Source of the DNA: a bacterium
GTDB lineage: Bacteria; Spirochaetota; UBA4802; UBA5550
Assembly (NCBI GenBank): GCA_024224995.1
Contig: JAAENB010000308.1
Coordinates: 1-14,365 of the forward strand
Direction of reading: 5' to 3'
DNA: 14,365 nucleotides
The stretch's first letter is position 1, and the number at the start of each line of letters is the position of its first letter. A model generated the notes under the pieces. The model was given only the letters and a program-made list of their open reading frames with translations, was not told where the DNA came from and ran no database searches. The position numbers and the translations under genes are program-made. Positions 1 through 13,640 of this stretch are shown here, in pieces.

Positions 1-57
1 AGCTTGCATCAATGTTCTCCTCTCTCTCAAGAAACTAAGATTATGCTTGTGCCCGGG

Positions 58-147
58 TCTTGAAGTAGTATGGGCTCTTTGGATTGCTGCGGAACTCGCT
101 CCGCTCAAACAGTCCTCACAACCCAAAGAGCCCATACTACTTCAAGA
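58..147. repeat. Palindromic repeat E1 (29-bp arms)
   Basis: Arms 58-86 and 119-147 are inverted copies with one mismatch, enclosing a loop at 87-118. The arms are unrelated to those of E2 and E3. The loop carries the same core as E3: GGAACTCGCTCCGCTC at 91-106, followed by a CCTCACAACC stretch. E1 is therefore a shorter member of the same repeat family with different arms. Short reading frames across it, on either strand, come from the palindrome and are not genes. Confidence 0.85.
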
Positions 148-166
148 CCAGATACAGCTCGCAAAG

Positions 167-198
167 CTATTTAGTCTCCGGTCTATTTTTTCCCTGCT
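167..198 (-). repeat. Decayed copy of the 3' end of the SpoIIM-family gene
   Basis: Bases 167-198 closely match 379-410, which contain the last codons and stop of the SpoIIM-family gene and the bases just beyond. The shared pieces include CTATTTAGT, then TCCG, then TCTATTTTTTC. Copy 167-198 lies just past E1 and copy 379-410 just past E2, so the pair 'palindrome plus gene 3' end' appears twice in tandem. This suggests an old local duplication. The match is imperfect, so the boundaries are approximate. Confidence 0.55.
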
Positions 199-232
199 AA
201 ACCGGGTCGGTCGTGTCTCAATATACCAAAAA

Positions 233-377
233 ACGTAATTCGGAATGTAAGCTATGGCCGGAGCGATGCCTCTGCGGGTTGTGAGGCTGTTTGAGCGGAG
301 CGAGTTCCGAACGTTCCGCGGAGGTATTGCTCCGGCCATAGCTTACATTCCGGGTTCATATACCTTATATATGACGC
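233..377. repeat. 145-bp palindromic repeat E2
   Basis: Perfect 24-bp arms at 241-264 and 329-352 surround a loop containing GAGCGGAGCGAGTTCCGAAC. Aligned with the reverse complement of E3 (3876-4020), similarity begins at ACGTAATT (233) and ends at GACGC (377), giving 145 bp in both copies. Flanking sequences differ outside these limits, which marks the ends of the element. No transposase or open coding frame is present. It is a non-autonomous palindromic repeat of the REP/BIME or MITE kind; which class is not known. Confidence 0.9.
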
Positions 378-394
378 ACTATTTAGTTTCCGCT

Positions 395-1354
395 CTATTT
401 TTTCACGCTACGCTCAACCACCACAGGATACAAAACATAGTACCATATAACAAAAAGCAGGGAGCCTGCGATAATCGCCATGCAGAGAGGCCGGGGCATG
501 GTTGTATACCGGGTAACGAATCCTTCAAGGAAACCCGCAATAATAAAGAGCGGTATTGCTCCAAGAAACATTTTGAGCCCGTCCTTTGCGCCCCGGGCAA
601 AAGAATTAGCCCTGGACCAGGTTCCGGGGAATAGAATACTGTTTCCAATAACAATTCCCGCACCTGCGGAAAGAAGTATGGCGGTGACCTCAAGAGTGCC
701 GTGAATCCAGATACTTAAAACAGAAGTAAAAAACAGCCCCTTTTGATAAAACAAATAGTGAAAAGCCCCCATTAGTACCCCATTCATAAAAAGAATAATA
801 CCGGTTCCAAATGAAAAGCAGACTCCAATGGTAAACGCCGCCAGCGCAACCTTGATATTATTTATTGTTATACCCAAAAACATATTCAACTCATTCGCCT
901 GCTTATATACAGCCATAGGATCGCCGCCCTCAATATTATCAAGAGTCATATTCACATAGGAATCTCCCAGGATAAGCCGTATAAACCCATCATCATTGGC
1001 AGAGGAGAGAACCCCAATACCGATTGAAGTAACAAAAATAACCAGGGAATATAAAAGATGCTGCCGGTACTTTCCATACAGCAGGGGCAGTTCCTTAATC
1101 CAGAACGAGCCAAAACGCTTTTTATCCTCTTTCTTGTTCCGGTAAATTGCCTGGTGATATTTTGAAGTTAGACTGTTTAAATAGATCGTTGTTTTACTTC
1201 CGGAATAAAACGTTTGCGCGTACGCAAGGTCATCAGTGAGCTGAATAAACAACTCTGCCAGTTGATCCGGGTCGGCATCCTTCTCATTGGCCATCAATAA
1301 CTCCAACCGTTTCCACCGTTCGGCATTCTGCTTTAAAAAGACTATTTCTTTCAT
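395..1354 (-). CDS. SpoIIM/DUF95-family integral membrane protein
   Basis: A protein of about 319 aa. The N-terminal 95 residues are soluble and charged, opening MKEIVFLKQNAERWKRLE, the usual start of this family. At least five hydrophobic segments follow. The loop-helix motifs WIHGTLEVTAI and AGFLEGFVTR are typical of SpoIIM-like proteins. In endospore formers SpoIIM works with SpoIID/SpoIIP in engulfment; in other bacteria the family is a membrane protein of unknown role. I chose ATG 1354. An in-frame TTG at 1375 would add only an isoleucine-rich heptapeptide encoded by ATA/ATT repeats, and neither start has a well-placed Shine-Dalgarno. The gene ends inside a duplicated stretch directly beside repeat E2. 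It is divergent from the orphan gene at 1606. Family assignment is fairly sure; function is not. Confidence 0.82.
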   Translation of the reverse strand: MKEIVFLKQNAERWKRLELLMANEKDADPDQLAELFIQLTDDLAYAQTFYSGSKTTIYLNSLTSKYHQAIYRNKKEDKKRFGSFWIKELPLLYGKYRQHLLYSLVIFVTSIGIGVLSSANDDGFIRLILGDSYVNMTLDNIEGGDPMAVYKQANELNMFLGITINNIKVALAAFTIGVCFSFGTGIILFMNGVLMGAFHYLFYQKGLFFTSVLSIWIHGTLEVTAILLSAGAGIVIGNSILFPGTWSRANSFARGAKDGLKMFLGAIPLFIIAGFLEGFVTRYTTMPRPLCMAIIAGSLLFVIWYYVLYPVVVERSVKK

Positions 1355-1397
1355 GATAATTATTATTATCGCCAATCCCTAATTGAGTCAACCAAAA

Positions 1398-1442
1398 ATC
1401 GCTGTCAATTTCTGACACCGGGTGTCAGAAATTGACAGCGAT
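1398..1442. repeat. Perfect 45-bp palindrome, possible upstream activator site
   Basis: Arms 1398-1419 and 1421-1442 are perfect 22-bp inverted copies around one base (1420). Each arm contains the smaller dyad TGTCA-N5-TGACA. It lies between divergent genes, 43 bp before the SpoIIM-family ATG and centred about 160 bp before the predicted sigma-54 start point, a distance typical of enhancer-binding protein sites. It cannot end either flanking gene. Alternatives are a stray REP-type hairpin or a leader hairpin of the SpoIIM-family transcript. Confidence 0.75.
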
Positions 1443-1553
1443 AGACTGTTCCGGCAATATTTCCACACAAAAAAACTACACAAATAACTGGCTGTTTTTT
1501 AAAAAATAAATAAAAACACAAATAATATCAAAAAAAATACGTTCAAATCATTT

Positions 1554-1581
1554 CTGGCATAAATCTTGCATAATATATTGG
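1554..1581 (+). promoter_or_regulatory. Sigma-54 (-24/-12) promoter
   Basis: The sequence CTGGCATAAATCTTGCA has GG at 1556-1557 and GC at 1568-1569, exactly 12 bp apart as in the RpoN consensus TGGCACG-N4-TTGCW. The -12 element TTGCA is a full match; the -24 element matches five of seven positions. Transcription would start near 1581, leaving a 25-nt leader with AAGGAG at 1591-1596, nine bases before the ATG at 1606. No comparable sigma-70 pair is visible here. Confidence 0.68.
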
Positions 1582-1605
1582 TATAAATATAAGGAGTATT
1601 GAACC

Positions 1606-1914
1606 ATGGAGAAATTCAAATCCTACTACAACAAATTCCTTTCTCTTTCAGAGAACCGGGAGTACTTTAAGATGATGAAAAATGTTAGAAGAAACTTCAG
1701 CGAAGGCGGCAACAAAGCTTACGTCTCTCCCTATGACGTAAAAATCCTTAAAGAATTACTCACCAAGGGCATGCTTAATCCCGGAGCCTTTCAACTCATT
1801 GACAATGGAAATTATATTTACCAATACAGCTCCGAGCCCTTTACCGATAAAGGCTTTACCGAATTCGACGGCACCTGGCTCACCAAAACAAAAACCACCT
1901 ACTACGAACACTAA
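1606..1914 (+). CDS. Small orphan protein behind a sigma-54-type promoter
   Basis: A 102-aa soluble protein that I do not recognise. It is basic at the N-terminus (MEKFKSYYNKF) and rich in aromatic residues, especially Tyr and Phe. It has no signal peptide, membrane segment, cysteine pair or known motif. The coding call rests on a strong Shine-Dalgarno (AAGGAG, 9-nt spacing), a matching -24/-12 promoter and a terminal TAA fitted to the neighbouring gene. The TAA at 1912-1914 overlaps the TAG of the convergent DUF115 gene at 1911-1913, so the two transcripts must run into each other. RpoN control would suggest induction by a specific activator, for example in nutrient or envelope stress; this is inference. 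No function can be assigned. Confidence 0.75.
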   Translation: MEKFKSYYNKFLSLSENREYFKMMKNVRRNFSEGGNKAYVSPYDVKILKELLTKGMLNPGAFQLIDNGNYIYQYSSEPFTDKGFTEFDGTWLTKTKTTYYEH

Positions 1915-3818
1915 ACAAGAAGGGATTTCATTTTGCCCAGGATCTTTTTATTAAAGAGCGCGCCTTCAAGAAGTCCCCGGTAGAGAAATCCCGATTTTTT
2001 TGCCACCAGTTCGTCCTCACTAAGAGAGCTGTCCGCGTCGTCGATCTCGTATCCTTCGGTTATGGTGTGGATAACCCGCTGGATCGTAAAGCTGATGACA
2101 TCCTTGATGGTCTCTTTTGATTCAATTACCGCGTCTGCTTCAGAGAGCTTTCTTAAGGTATAATCAACTTTTCCCCGGTCCCGTTTTTCCTTTTCCTCTT
2201 TCATCATAGCCAGCAGATTGTCCGAATATTCGATTCCCCGCTCCAGAACAGGAATAAGCGACTCTATCTCATCAAGCATGAGCCCTACCCGCTTAACAAG
2301 CCTCTCATGCGTACTTCCCTCTGCGCCCTTCTTTTCGGAATGGGCCGCTTGTGCTGAATATATTTCATCGATTAATGCTGATATCGTACTACCACGGTCC
2401 GGGTTGCTTTCACCGGAGAATTCCCCCTCAAGGTCCGAACAATCCCGGTGGGCAACACCGGTAATATAGGCACCGTCATGGGTAGCGTTTATGAGATTGC
2501 TGTCTTTTCTTTTTTCGAACCAGGAAAGAAAAATCATCATCTTCTGGTTGGTATGTACTTGCGGGGTCCGTATTCCCTTAACGAATATTTTGGGAAGCGC
2601 CGTGAGCTGCCTGCGGTTAAACATATCAACCGTATTTACCCTGTTTGTTTTTAGATGGATCTGCTCATCCAGGTAGGAGCCCCGCGCATGCGCCTGGCCG
2701 TTGGTAAAAGAAAGATCCTGCCCCACCATAATAATGGGCTTTGCTCCCAGGCGCAGGGCAAAATCATAGGCATTGGTAGATACCGATCCGCCATGAGTCA
2801 GTTCTCCCCGCTCTCCAAATATCCGCTCTATCCACTTCATGAGCTTAAAGGCTACCCCTGTGCATACGACCCTGCCCCGGAAGAGGCGGTAGACTGAAGG
2901 GTGTACTGTGGGATCGGCCACCAGAATGGTTTTCCCTTCTCTTGTTCCTTCGAAATACCGGGCATTGATTACCTGGGGGTCTACTGCTATACAAAAATGA
3001 GGCTCTATTCCGTGATGCAGCAATACCCCATACGCCGTATCCACTGCCACGATGATCATACGCTCACGGTTTTTCCGGATAAATTCCAGGCTGTGCAGTA
3101 AGGTTGGTCCTGCTGCCACAACCAGGGCCGGCATATCTTTGAACATATCATAAAAAATATTCGCTCCCGGAGAAGCGGCAAATGCACCTATATTCCGGGC
3201 AATATTTGAACTCCAGATCTTTTCGAACTTAGCCAGGGTGGCAATGTTTACCTCTTTTGTAGAGAGGTAGGACCGGGCCTTTTCCAGGAGATTGTTATAA
3301 TACTCAGGGTCTGCCTGGTATGATCCCCGGTGGCTTATAAAACTGACCCTGCGCGAGGACTTCCCTTTCATTGTTTCGGCAATAAGATCTTCATTGGGAT
3401 TTACCAGTATATGTACCCGCTCATCCGCGAGAATTGTCCGTAAATCCCGGTGAGCCAGGGCCTCTTTTACCATTGCGGGAAACTTTTCTATTGCCAGGAG
3501 AATGGAACCGGGTCCTATTTTTTTTAAGAGCTCTTCTATATGATAGGCAAATCCGAATCCCAGCACAATATAGAGATCGTGCTGCTCCGGGTCCACTTCG
3601 GAAACAAACCGCGCTGCTTCTTTAAAGGGATCGAACTTGCTGTGAATAAAGATCTTTTTTCCTTCCCCGTCAAGGGTTACTTGCGGAACAAAATCCCCTT
3701 TTTTGGATTCGATTGCCTGTATGAAATTATCGGCATTACAATCCGTGAGAGCCCGGTGCAGAAGGGGATGCTTTTCCAGTAAGAGCTCCCGGTTGTTCTT
3801 TTGTATACTGTTGTCCAT
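1911..3818 (-). CDS. DUF115 / Maf-type motility-associated glycosyltransferase-like protein
   Basis: A 635-aa soluble protein. Residues about 205-395 form the DUF115 (MAF_flag10) core, with ALVVAAGPTL (231-240), VDTAYGVLLHHGIEPHF (259-275) followed by AVDP, and a stretch at 343-370 ending in GQDLS. This fold is related to the 6-hydroxymethylpterin diphosphokinase MptE. Maf proteins of Campylobacter, Aeromonas and Clostridium transfer nonulosonic acid sugars to flagellin, and spirochaetes carry several such genes. The C-terminal part (about 505-590) is charged and helical. The start at 3818 has only a weak purine run upstream. It stands alone, divergent from the phosphatase gene with repeat E3 between them, and converges on the orphan gene. 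The family is clear; the role in flagellin or surface glycosylation is inferred. Confidence 0.88.
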   Translation of the reverse strand: MDNSIQKNNRELLLEKHPLLHRALTDCNADNFIQAIESKKGDFVPQVTLDGEGKKIFIHSKFDPFKEAARFVSEVDPEQHDLYIVLGFGFAYHIEELLKKIGPGSILLAIEKFPAMVKEALAHRDLRTILADERVHILVNPNEDLIAETMKGKSSRRVSFISHRGSYQADPEYYNNLLEKARSYLSTKEVNIATLAKFEKIWSSNIARNIGAFAASPGANIFYDMFKDMPALVVAAGPTLLHSLEFIRKNRERMIIVAVDTAYGVLLHHGIEPHFCIAVDPQVINARYFEGTREGKTILVADPTVHPSVYRLFRGRVVCTGVAFKLMKWIERIFGERGELTHGGSVSTNAYDFALRLGAKPIIMVGQDLSFTNGQAHARGSYLDEQIHLKTNRVNTVDMFNRRQLTALPKIFVKGIRTPQVHTNQKMMIFLSWFEKRKDSNLINATHDGAYITGVAHRDCSDLEGEFSGESNPDRGSTISALIDEIYSAQAAHSEKKGAEGSTHERLVKRVGLMLDEIESLIPVLERGIEYSDNLLAMMKEEKEKRDRGKVDYTLRKLSEADAVIESKETIKDVISFTIQRVIHTITEGYEIDDADSSLSEDELVAKKSGFLYRGLLEGALFNKKILGKMKSLLV

Positions 3819-3875
3819 AGTGTTCTTTTTAAGCGTTTGAAAAGAGGCGTCAAGAATTATTTTATGTTAAGTTCC

Positions 3876-4020
3876 GCGTCGTGTATATGGGGTATCTGCC
3901 CGGAATGTAACGTATGGCTGGCGTAATACCTCCGCAGAACGTTCGGAACTCGCTCCGCTCAGACAGCCTCACAACCTGCCGAGGCATCACGCCAGCCATA
4001 CGTTACATTCCGAATTACGT
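3876..4020. repeat. 145-bp palindromic repeat E3 (inverted copy of E2)
   Basis: Perfect 24-bp arms at 3901-3924 and 3989-4012. Read on the minus strand it aligns with E2 (233-377) over exactly 145 bp, from ACGTAATT to GACGC. The loop core differs from E2 at only a few positions. The arms differ at five positions per side, and every change in one arm is matched in the other so that pairing stays perfect. It ends 17 bp before the -35 box of the phosphatase promoter and 57 bp before the divergent DUF115 start. Confidence 0.92.
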
Positions 4021-4036
4021 TCACGGGATAATTTAT

Positions 4037-4073
4037 TTGACAGACTTTTAATGATGTTGTACAATTACTGGTA
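4037..4073 (+). promoter_or_regulatory. Sigma-70 promoter of the RsbU-like gene, possibly giving a leaderless mRNA
   Basis: TTGACA at 4037-4042 and TACAAT at 4060-4065 are separated by exactly 17 bp, a near-consensus promoter. Only seven bases separate the -10 box from the ATG at 4073. The expected transcription start is therefore at or within a base or two of the A of the start codon. There is no Shine-Dalgarno before this ATG. Confidence 0.75.
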
Positions 4074-5317
4074 TGAACGGTAATAACTCTTCCGACAATT
4101 ATTCCCTATCCAATGATTTTCCCATTGCCCAGGCGGTACTGGACGAAAATCTTTTGCTGTTGGAAACGAATATTTTTTTTAACGAGCTTTTTGAAATAAC
4201 GCCCGGAACCCTGGAGCCCCATCTGCTGGAAAAGACCTTTAAAAATAAATTCAAACGCCTGGCCGCAACCCTGAAAAGCGGTTCTTCCGAAAAAATAATC
4301 TTCTCGTTCAAGACCGTAAGCGGAAATAAAAAATATATCCTGTTTAAATCGGCTCAAGGAGAAGTGAACAGCTCGATAATTTACTACACCATATTCATTG
4401 ATGTTACAGAGTTCCAGGAACTCATACAGTACTTAAACTCAGCCTTTGACCAGTTTAAATCCACAACCAGCTCCCTTGAAAAAGAACTGACAAGCACCAA
4501 AGAAAAAGAAGAGGCATTTGAAGAGAATTATAATAAACTCATAACCGGGTACAGCCAGATGAACAAAGACATGAACCTGGCCATGGTACTGCAAAATTCC
4601 CTGCTTCCCACTCCTCCGGCCTCCCGCCACTGGCGGTTAAGCTATTTTTTCAAGCCAATGGCCGGGGTTTCCGGAGATATAATCGATTTTTATGATTTTA
4701 GTGATGTTTATTTTGACGAATCGGAACAGGAAGAGAACCTGGGAATTCTGCTGCTCGATGCTTCGGGACATGGAGTCTCATCGGCATTAATTACAGCCAT
4801 TGCCCGGCCTATCTTTTATAAAAATCACCGCCTCCATAAAGATGATTCCCTGGCCAAAGCCATTAAAGATGCCAATATTGAATTGTGCAGGGAAATAGGT
4901 CATATTTCCAACTATTTAACAGGAATTACTCTTCGTCTCAGCAATAATCACTTTTCTTACGTAAACGCTGCCCATCCATATATTATCTATAAAAGAGCCA
5001 AAACCGGGAAGATACATGAACTGGACAACAACGGCATCCTTCTGGGACTGGACGAATTCCAGGGAGACTTCACTGCCAGAAAAGCAGAAGCCTCACGAGG
5101 TGATATACTTCTGCTATATACCGACGGGCTCATTGAAACTAAAAATCCCGATGGTGAGGAATTTGGTGTTGAAAGAGTAAAAAAAATCATTGCCCAAACC
5201 GACGGTGAGGCTAAAGACGTCAAAAAGAAAATTCTTAGCGAAATGACCTCTTTTGGCATAGACCTGGATAAACTCCGGGACGATATGACCTTTGTAGTTA
5301 TTAAGAAGGTGAGGTAA
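4073..5317 (+). CDS. RsbU/SpoIIE-type PP2C phosphatase with N-terminal PAS-like region
   Basis: A 414-aa cytoplasmic protein. Residues about 15-115 look like a PAS-type sensor (IAQAVLDENLLLLETNIFF, ending in FIDVTEF). A charged, probably coiled-coil linker covers 115-165. The C-terminal half is a SpoIIE/PP2C domain with metal-binding acidic motifs SGDII (Asp202), LLLDASGHG (Asp229), YTDGLIE (Asp351) and DDMTFVV (403-409). Such enzymes dephosphorylate a Ser/Thr on an anti-sigma-factor antagonist (STAS protein) and so free a sigma factor or other target. No STAS or RsbW-type partner lies in this window. It is a single gene with its own strong promoter, probably translated leaderless, and converges on the PBP gene with an 80-bp gap lacking an obvious terminator. 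Confidence 0.93.
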   Translation: MNGNNSSDNYSLSNDFPIAQAVLDENLLLLETNIFFNELFEITPGTLEPHLLEKTFKNKFKRLAATLKSGSSEKIIFSFKTVSGNKKYILFKSAQGEVNSSIIYYTIFIDVTEFQELIQYLNSAFDQFKSTTSSLEKELTSTKEKEEAFEENYNKLITGYSQMNKDMNLAMVLQNSLLPTPPASRHWRLSYFFKPMAGVSGDIIDFYDFSDVYFDESEQEENLGILLLDASGHGVSSALITAIARPIFYKNHRLHKDDSLAKAIKDANIELCREIGHISNYLTGITLRLSNNHFSYVNAAHPYIIYKRAKTGKIHELDNNGILLGLDEFQGDFTARKAEASRGDILLLYTDGLIETKNPDGEEFGVERVKKIIAQTDGEAKDVKKKILSEMTSFGIDLDKLRDDMTFVVIKKVR

Positions 5318-13189: not shown

Positions 13190-13483
13190 TTACTTCATAG
13201 CCTCGTCAAAATCCCTTTTCCCGTGAATAATATCATGAATTAATACATCATCTTTTTGTATCTCATAAATAAGTCGATAAGAATAAATAAAAATTTCTCT
13301 AATTTTGTTATCATCAATTTCCGGAACAACTCGTCCCATTGAAGGAAATTCATTGAGTGATTCTGATTTTTCAATTATTGTGAGTGTGACTTTTTGTGCA
13401 TAGAAGTGAGAATCCAAAGCAATATAATCATGGATACTTTTAAGATCCTCTTTGGCAGGATTGGATTTCTTTTTTCAATTCAT
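13190..13483 (-). pseudogene. ParE/RelE-type toxin with an in-frame TGA near its start
   Basis: The visible open frame (from TTG 13417) encodes 75 aa with the ParE signature ESLNEFPSMGRVVPE, IREIFIYSYRLIYEI and DIIHGKRDFDEAMK. ParE toxins of this type are about 95-100 aa. Extending upstream in the same frame adds NPAKEDLKSIHDYIA, which fits the missing first helix, then three lysines, a TGA at 13475-13477, and ATG AAT at 13478-13483. Counting from that ATG gives 97 codons before the stop, the family length. The toxin is therefore probably inactivated, by TGG to TGA or by a slip in the adjoining A6 run, unless it starts at a weak codon. It overlaps the end of the antitoxin gene. Known ParE toxins inhibit DNA gyrase; RelE relatives cleave mRNA on the ribosome. 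Confidence 0.75.
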
Positions 13484-13640
13484 CAACAGTGAGAGTTTTT
13501 CCATCTTTAACAGCTTCCTGACTGTGTGCAACTTTATCTATCACATAGAGACGATACATGATATCTTCAATGTTTGCATTATCCGGAAGTTTAGAAATTG
13601 CCTCAAGGGCTTCTTGTTTTATATTTGAATGCATACGCAT
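13440..13640 (-). CDS. Antitoxin partner of the ParE-type toxin
   Basis: A 66-aa acidic protein whose core SKLPDNANIEDIMYRLYVID matches the helix pattern of small antitoxins paired with ParE/RelE toxins ('LP-x-D-A-x-x-E-D-I-M-Y' type). The C-terminus (LTVDELKKEIQ) would wrap the toxin. The start is well supported: AGGAG five bases before the ATG at 13640; a second Met is at codon 3. It precedes the toxin remnant and overlaps it by 44 bp, the normal antitoxin-toxin order. The antitoxin frame is intact while the toxin is broken, the usual order of decay since an antitoxin alone is harmless. It probably represses its own promoter as in other type II modules; this is inferred. Confidence 0.75.
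   Translation of the reverse strand: MRMHSNIKQEALEAISKLPDNANIEDIMYRLYVIDKVAHSQEAVKDGKTLTVDELKKEIQSCQRGS

Follow-up and report, generated by a model that had tools for sequence, protein, structure and literature searches.

The closest known kind of element to the repeats described here is REP/REPIN. In Pseudomonas fluorescens, REPINs are paired inverted REPs in which compensatory changes on both sides are common (PMC3116915). The likeness lies in an extragenic symmetrical hairpin with conserved ends and a less conserved part whose length and hairpin capacity seem critical (PMC3116915), and the repeats here indeed combine a conserved 10-bp base with a variable pairing stem that carries mirrored changes. 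They differ from REPINs in that the head near the loop is strongly conserved too, in that the unit measures 145 bp with its tail, against a REPIN spacing of 71 or 110 bp (PMC3116915), and in their mirrored length differences. REPs tagged with GTAG or CGTC are likewise palindromic, form dimers in opposite orientation and fall into subfamilies set apart by complementary residues in the stem, and one type carries GTAG two bases before the palindrome; their stems, however, are mostly of 6–9 bp (12–13 in one family) with frequent G.T (PMC3733652, PMC8266576), whereas the stems here have 27–41 pairs, with loops of about 32–40 nt, and G.U is rare in their outer parts. In BIMEs, neighbouring REP units alternate in orientation (PMC2817692), as do the neighbouring units here in 4/4 pairs (-,+,- on each of two contigs).

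Template switching is documented to homogenise the arms of inverted repeats (PMC8604942, PMC6649704) and can also invert the spacer (PMC8604942). Such quasipalindrome correction shares with the present case its identical arms and clustered mirrored changes, but the descriptions covered concern scattered inverted repeats and mitochondrial genes rather than a dispersed repeat of bacteria whose head is conserved (PMC8604942, PMC6649704). The repetitive hairpin-forming elements of sponge mitochondria are also dispersed, in two types a few complementary substitutions apart, but there it is the loops that vary and the stems that are conserved, opposite to what is found here (PMC2800124). The BOX and RUP elements of pneumococcus are dispersed intergenic repeats with predicted folding once transcribed; their sequence and module plan are different, and mirrored stem turnover is unmentioned in the parts of that source covered (PMC3049150).

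The window, i.e. the whole stretch of 14,365 nucleotides that was analysed, holds three units of two types, E1 on the one hand and E2 with its inverted copy E3 on the other (Table 1). Two complete-stem copies (L1b, E2-type; L1E1, E1-type) and one cut-off copy (L1a) were found on a second, public contig, L001, and six exact cores, three per contig, lie within 17.4 kb of the two contigs.

Table 1. Coordinates of the hairpin units and associated features in the window.
Feature	Position	Strand	Basis and remarks
E1, hairpin of the second type, with its arms at 56-86 and 119-149 and its core at 90-112 on the minus strand	56-149	-	Inverted-repeat detection, alignment, folding; relative at about 200-291 in L001
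E1-E2 linker; aligns with L001 apart from one 18-nt length difference	150-232	.	
E2, 145-bp hairpin repeat with 3' tail	233-377	+	Inverted-repeat detection, alignment, pairing, folding
E2 5' arm; base (241-250) and upper stem (265 onward) conserved, 251-264 variable	241-277	+	
Core, 23 nt; exact complement of 90-112 in E1, one change vs E3	287-309	+	
E2 3' arm	316-352	+	
Second copy (92%) of linker segment 167-192; holds the stop codon of a SpoIIM-domain gene	379-404	+	
E3, inverted second copy of the E2-type repeat	3876-4020	-	Inverted-repeat detection, pairing, folding
E3 hairpin; arms 3901-3937 and 3976-4012	3901-4012	-	

E2 and E3 belong to a 146-nt inverted pair (232-377/3876-4021) at 85% complementarity, and each forms a local hairpin of its own (Table 1). 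As the original prediction had it, both measure exactly 145 bp, in a gap-free alignment, and five stem differences (positions 11, 12, 19, 22, and 24) are mirrored between the arms, with all pairs Watson-Crick in both copies, so that the outer 24-bp stems are perfect. This perfection is confined to the outer 24 bp: the whole 37-pair stem is imperfect because, near the loop, two G.U pairs are conserved and one position varies. Over its full length it shows six mirrored changes, the sixth at stem position 36, and one one-sided change, at position 33, the latter two being nearer the loop. If the arms changed independently, the chance of such mirroring would be P ~3e-6 when only the positions are considered and 4e-9 when base identity is included, values that ignore relatedness and serve as a guide only. 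The E2-type unit comprises three zones, namely the conserved 10-bp base, a variable stem of 14–18 bp and a conserved ~63-nt head that contains internal loops. Between E2 and E3, the head differs at 4/63 positions, the variable stem at 10/28 and the core at a single site; the original prediction had noted changes at a few sites in the loop.

The copies on L001 extended this pattern, and mirrored changes were present in 4/4 pairwise comparisons of same-type complete-stem copies. E1 and L1E1 differ by nine mirrored and two one-sided changes, E2 and L1b by six mirrored changes plus one column altered on both sides without mirroring, and E3 and L1b by four mirrored and one one-sided; the sample is small, with no more than five complete stems from the two types, and the copies are related. 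Transversions account for 3/6 of the mirrored changes in E2-E3, 1/6 in E2-L1b, 4/4 in E3-L1b and 6/9 in E1-L1E1. Mirrored 4-bp length differences occur in both hairpin types (E1 and E2), and adjacent mirrored changes form runs in the outer stems, while the 32-nt stretch spanning the E1 loop is identical in L1E1. Among the copies found, the outer arms match in 5/5 complete stems, with 2/134 pairs non-Watson-Crick, both G.U, and the arms vary from copy to copy, the E2/E3 pair being no exception.

L001 is assigned to a Lentisphaerae MAG, in which it is probably misbinned. Its tetranucleotide correlation with the window averages 0.79, the same as among pieces of the window (0.79), against 0.56 with 20 kb from a large contig in the MAG; codon usage gives no clear assignment (L001-window 0.82, L001-MAG 0.77, window-MAG 0.85). 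The core was present in 1/288 genomes of the Lentisphaerae phylum, that genome being the MAG that holds L001. A spread of the repeats across phyla was not accepted, since the tetranucleotide profile of L001 fits the window and not the MAG sequence compared. L001 ends at copies on both sides, which is consistent with many copies but is not proof of them. A protein search with one L001 gene returned 40 relatives.

With regard to genomic setting, the cores lie outside genes with Pfam matches on both contigs, as in REPs and REPINs, and E3 is located between the divergent genes 1911-3818 (-) and 4073-5317 (+). Terminal inverted repeats, a trait of MITEs, are present as the base CGGAATGTAA / TTACATTCCG, conserved in E2, E3, and L1b. 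No consistent direct repeat that could represent a target-site duplication was seen by eye in the aligned flanks, and no RAYT (Y1) transposase was found among the 13 proteins scanned with Pfam (10 from the window and 3 from L001, small ORFs being left out). The tag of the tagged REPs is inconsistent here: two bases ahead of the E2-type stem, L1a has GTAG whereas E2 and E3 have GTAA, which amounts to GTAG in 1/3 and GTAA in 2/3 of the E2-type copies whose 5' flank is visible, L1b having none in view. E1 and L1E1 have no such tag at their foot, and on the opposite strand the tails of E2 and E3, unlike that of L1b, end in CGTC. An intrinsic terminator was rejected, since the 3' flanks of E1, E2, E3, L1b, and L1E1 have no T run after the stem; terminator scans gave 0 sites, with loops of 3-8 only, a range that does not cover the long loops of these hairpins. 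An outward promoter was not supported either, with a 10/12 site in the L1b base and tail, none in window positions 1-420, and a 9/12 site with other hexamers in the E3 tail.

The original prediction knew of no named family with this core. A search of literature text indeed gave no match to the core, but mirrored stem changes as such have the REPIN precedent (PMC3116915). Rfam 15 returned ten hits up to E 5, none of them at the gathering score and 6/10 to microRNA models. An exact 17-base core in three viral contigs was dropped as chance, being without flanking hairpin arms, as was one viral hit to the 18 bases of the 5' end, whose second arm was absent in the stretch viewed; two further viral pattern searches, with linker and core, gave 0 matches. 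With blastn, two plasmid records (E 1 and 4) and one phage record (E 0.4) were returned. A Thiothrix stretch that matches no more than part of an E1 arm and a microvirus match with GAGCGGAGCGAG units but no palindrome were attributed to chance. No protein sharing three words with the 54-residue read-through peptide was found among candidates of about 0.55-1.75x its length.

We propose, with a probability of about 0.52, that these repeats form a dispersed hairpin family of an uncultured spirochaete, with two unit types that have a head sequence in common and alternate in orientation, in which the stem is maintained by template-switch copying between the arms and the head is under selection. A constant head together with stem sides that change jointly, letter for letter, suggests recopying of one side from its partner. 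From a mechanistic point of view, the hairpin would form in single-stranded DNA during replication, and a polymerase switching to the opposite arm would copy a change or small indel across, or remove it. The stem would then drift in sequence yet remain a near-perfect palindrome, while head and base would be kept by selection, their reader being a transposase-like or other protein, or else an RNA function of the core-forward strand. Spread through the genome may be supposed from the dispersed copies. Work by van Noort in 2003 reportedly deals with quasipalindrome correction, i.e. the homogenisation of arms by template switching.

Selection alone may also be considered, if near-perfect pairing is required, in an RNA of the core-forward strand or in a protein-bound DNA hairpin, and changes in one arm are compensated later in the other; this is possible, if somewhat unlikely. 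The authors of the REPIN study take compensatory stem changes to mean that hairpin capacity matters (PMC3116915). In line with a selected fold, the core-forward strand gives the better fold of the two strands in 5/5 copies, so that selection perhaps acts on this strand. Its RNA folding z-scores are -11.4 for E2, -10.0 for E3 and -11.0 for E1, and 0/200 shuffles were as stable as the native fold for each of them. The five distinct transition-type mismatches are all G.U on the core-forward strand and none is A.C, a bias that fits pairing selection on that strand and has a two-sided chance of 1/16, assessed post hoc.

The low number of G.U pairs in the outer stems nevertheless favours copying, because stepwise compensation with tolerated G.U predicts more of them. 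When pairing selection was simulated with a G.U acceptance of 0.1, so few G.U had P 0.007 (divergence-matched) or 0.017 (equilibrium), and at 0.3 or 1 zero runs had so few non-Watson-Crick pairs. Very strict pairing was compatible with the data (P 0.08 at a G.U acceptance of 0.05; P 0.49 at 0.03 with mismatches at 0.003), so that selection alone requires an acceptance of about 0.05 or less. Mirrored transversions favour copying too, since G.U intermediates cannot serve them, and so many are hard to reach stepwise; with very strict pairing (0.01/0.01), however, simulation still gave at least three of them in 42% of runs. The mirrored 4-bp length differences likewise disfavour the stepwise route, which needs matching complementary indels at matching sites. 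Copying between the arms has evidence against it as well. Two upper-stem G.U pairs persist uncorrected in 3/3 complete-stem E2-type copies, which argues against it unless copying stops there or selection opposes it, and an inverted head, seen in 0/6 copies, would have been a mark of template switching, so that its absence counts against this process. The original prediction had left the choice between a selected fold and arm copying; the outer stem leans toward copying, by its mirrored indels, adjacent runs, transversions, and rare G.U, and the head points to selection.

Old subfamilies might also account for the pattern, if lineages spread separately with mirrored differences long fixed in their master copies, in which case these differences would be uninformative on the process at these loci. 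Compared with the window copies, both E2-type copies of L001 indeed share AATT after the base and a 5' arm 4 nt longer. We regard this explanation as quite improbable, since E2 and E3 stand on one contig with common length and ends and yet show six mirrored differences, and since it merely shifts the origin of the mirrored changes back to the master copies. An assembly or amplification artefact producing inverted duplicates is barely credible: the window's own protein is indeed listed from just one contig of 14,365 bases, but the elements recur in a second public contig with different flanks and different stems, and non-mirrored upper-stem positions are common to both contigs.

If copying does maintain the arms, each copy would be a record of template switches that took place during replication, and a full genome rich in such copies would make switching rate, tract length, and strand bias measurable in a wild bacterium. 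Compensatory changes in REP-like hairpins, which are usually taken as a sign of selected structure, would then need a control for copying. In a bolder version of arm copying, which we consider unlikely, the stem would be the sequence-blind handle of a mobile, or formerly mobile, hairpin, rewritten continually during replication by arm copying that includes indels, with a conserved head and base as the parts that an enzyme recognises; the family would then act within the genome as a natural recorder of template-switch events.

The three hairpins (E1, E2 and E3) of the window, a 14,365-base spirochaete contig, together with the copies found on a second public contig, L001, make up a real family of dispersed hairpins whose arms evolve by mirrored changes. 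A single core is common to all three window hairpins, which lie in intergenic positions or at a gene end: a SpoIIM-domain gene stands immediately upstream of E2, and E3 is flanked by divergent genes, with an MptE-like domain on one side and a SpoIIE domain on the other. Folding of the core-forward strand, which reads the core sequence, gave z-scores of -11.0 (E1), -11.4 (E2) and -10.0 (E3), with 0 of 200 shuffles matching the native stability in each case. Among the relatives listed for the window's signal peptidase (at least 120), the organism names given were mainly Spirochaetota, the best named one of those listed showing 60% identity at 94% query coverage.

Hairpin copies in the window and in L001
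Element	Position	Strand	Description
E1	56-149	minus	hairpin with core TGAGCGGAGCGAGTTCCG
E2	233-377	plus	hairpin with core TGAGCGGAGCGAGTTCCG
E3	3876-4020	minus	hairpin with core TGAGCGGAGCGAGTTCCG
L1a	L001 ~1-110		E2-type, cut off
L1b	L001 2865-3011		E2-type, complete stem
L1E1	L001 ~200-291		E1-type

Exact matches to the core (31-32-base pattern) were sought in 84,980 species genomes, in a collection of contigs of at least 3,000 bases where copies in fragmented assemblies and inexact cores would escape; one contig, L001 (3,011 bases), was returned with two matches, and it holds three cores in total. Both of its ends fall inside hairpin copies; repeats are places where assemblies break off. 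Window and L001 alike carry a single composite made up of E1, the linker and E2, in inverted order. The database places L001 in a Lentisphaerae MAG, where it looks misbinned, since its mean tetranucleotide correlation was 0.79 with five window pieces versus 0.56 with seven pieces from 20 kb of that MAG. Codon usage was uninformative on its origin, and the core occurred in one of 288 genomes of the MAG's phylum, that MAG alone. Between its hairpins (433-2829), L001 carries genes for a treble-clef zinc-finger protein, a ThiF-family protein (none of 40 listed relatives bearing an organism name) and a 274-aa protein without Pfam match. The base and tail of L1b contain a sigma-70-like site (10/12; 2901-2872, minus) directed towards a gene start at 2829; none comparable was found in window 1-420.

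Arm changes were indeed concerted, as the original prediction held, when paired columns were scored in copies with complete stems (L1a, with its truncated 3' arm, was excluded). Six mirrored changes stood against a single one-sided change between E2 and E3 (37 pairs), and mirrored changes were present in all four comparisons: E2-L1b showed six, plus one change on both sides but unmirrored (37 pairs); E3-L1b four, with one one-sided; and E1-L1E1 nine, with two one-sided, both tied to a G.U pair (27 pairs). A mirrored 4-bp length difference was added in E2-L1b, the same one in E3-L1b, and another in E1-L1E1, their position in the arms not being fixed (six of six cut points tried tie in L1b, four in E1). 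Transitions/transversions among mirrored changes were 3/3, 5/1, 0/4 and 3/6 for E2-E3, E2-L1b, E3-L1b and E1-L1E1, respectively, and mirrored changes formed runs in E1-L1E1 at positions 13-15 and 21-23. Compared with E3, E2 had no change in its 8-nt 5' flank or in either 10-nt base segment, while 5/14 positions per side differed in the variable stem, 4/63 in the head and 8/25 in the tail; stem and tail are thus the fast-changing parts and the head the slow one. The three E2-type copies with complete stems all have G.U at upper-stem positions 25 and 28, and U.G, G.G or G.A at position 33.

From a mechanistic point of view, arm copying combined with selection on the head is the most likely reading, at moderate confidence because only five complete stems could be compared. 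Most economically, one arm would be copied onto the other in the outer stem, while head and base would be held by selection. The mirroring of length differences, and the runs that mirrored changes form, point to copying; for the arms of inverted repeats, homogenisation by template switching is documented (PMC8604942; PMC6649704). Selection on pairing alone may also shape such stems if G.U is almost as harmful as a mismatch. With tolerated G.U it predicts many non-Watson-Crick pairs at such divergence, and only 2 of 134 were observed. In a simple Metropolis scheme (kappa 2, stems treated as independent) matched for divergence, the mean in 134 pairs was 36.7 with G.U free, 16.9 at acceptance 0.3 and 8.3 at 0.1, the probability of two or fewer being 0, 0 and 0.007 (300 runs each). 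It rose to 0.08 at acceptance 0.05 and to 0.49 at 0.03 with mismatches at 0.003, the strict setting that suits this explanation; at equilibrium, the same five settings gave 0, 0, 0.017, 0.033 and 0.32 (60 runs each). Single 24-pair stems lacked any non-Watson-Crick pair in 0%, 2% and 15% of 400 runs at G.U 1, 0.3 and 0.1 (mismatches 0.01). The simulated excess of such pairs means that selection alone requires G.U to be nearly as bad as a mismatch. Pure copying as the whole explanation is opposed by upper-stem G.U pairs left uncorrected, by the lack of inverted heads (0/6 copies) and by a strand bias whereby the core-forward strand folds better in 5/5 copies by 7 to 20 kcal/mol, at least partly because all five distinct transition-type mismatches are G.U there. 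Of the alternatives first proposed, selection on the fold or arm copying, each seems to keep its own zone: copying the outer stem (mirrored length differences, mirrored runs, few G.U), selection the head and base.

Other elements were noticed around these hairpins. A 26-bp linker segment flanks E2 on both sides (379-404 and 167-192, 92% alike); the copy at 379-404 contains the end of the SpoIIM-domain gene, whose last codons may thus derive from repeat DNA. The cores of E1 (90-112) and E2 (287-309) are exact complements on one strand over 23 nt, so the composite's two loops could pair mutually; its minimum-energy fold is two separate hairpins. Between two genes, at 1398-1442, lies an inverted repeat with perfect 22-bp arms 1 nt apart, possibly a second palindromic repeat; a 31-base pattern from it had 0 matches in viral contigs. 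Two adjacent small minus-strand ORFs (13190-13640; 75 and 66 aa) presumably resemble a RelE/ParE-type toxin and antitoxin. Several GAGCGGAGCGA units, like the core middle and without stems, occur in an intergenic stretch (~585-670) of a microvirus, L009.

Searches of one open-access library for the core string, and for palindromic elements together with compensatory or concerted arm change, yielded no paper; no existing name was found there for the family either, in agreement with the initial statement that the core is not known from a named one. GTAG/CGTC REPs are described as falling into subfamilies that differ by complementary residues in the stem, and as often showing G.T pairs, unlike the outer stems of the window and L001 hairpins (PMC3733652). 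L1a has GTAG two bases ahead of its stem (L001 ~95-108, minus), resembling the REP tag, whereas E2 and E3 have GTAA there; a REP type with GTAG two bases off the stem has been described (PMC8266576). No RAYT transposase turned up among the 10 window and 3 L001 proteins compared with Pfam. A genome-wide tool reported REPs in spirochaetes with default limits of 32 nt for palindromes and 11 nt for loops, both of which the present hairpins exceed (PMC12306157). In plan, the family is a variant of the REP/REPIN kind, and as such a candidate member only.
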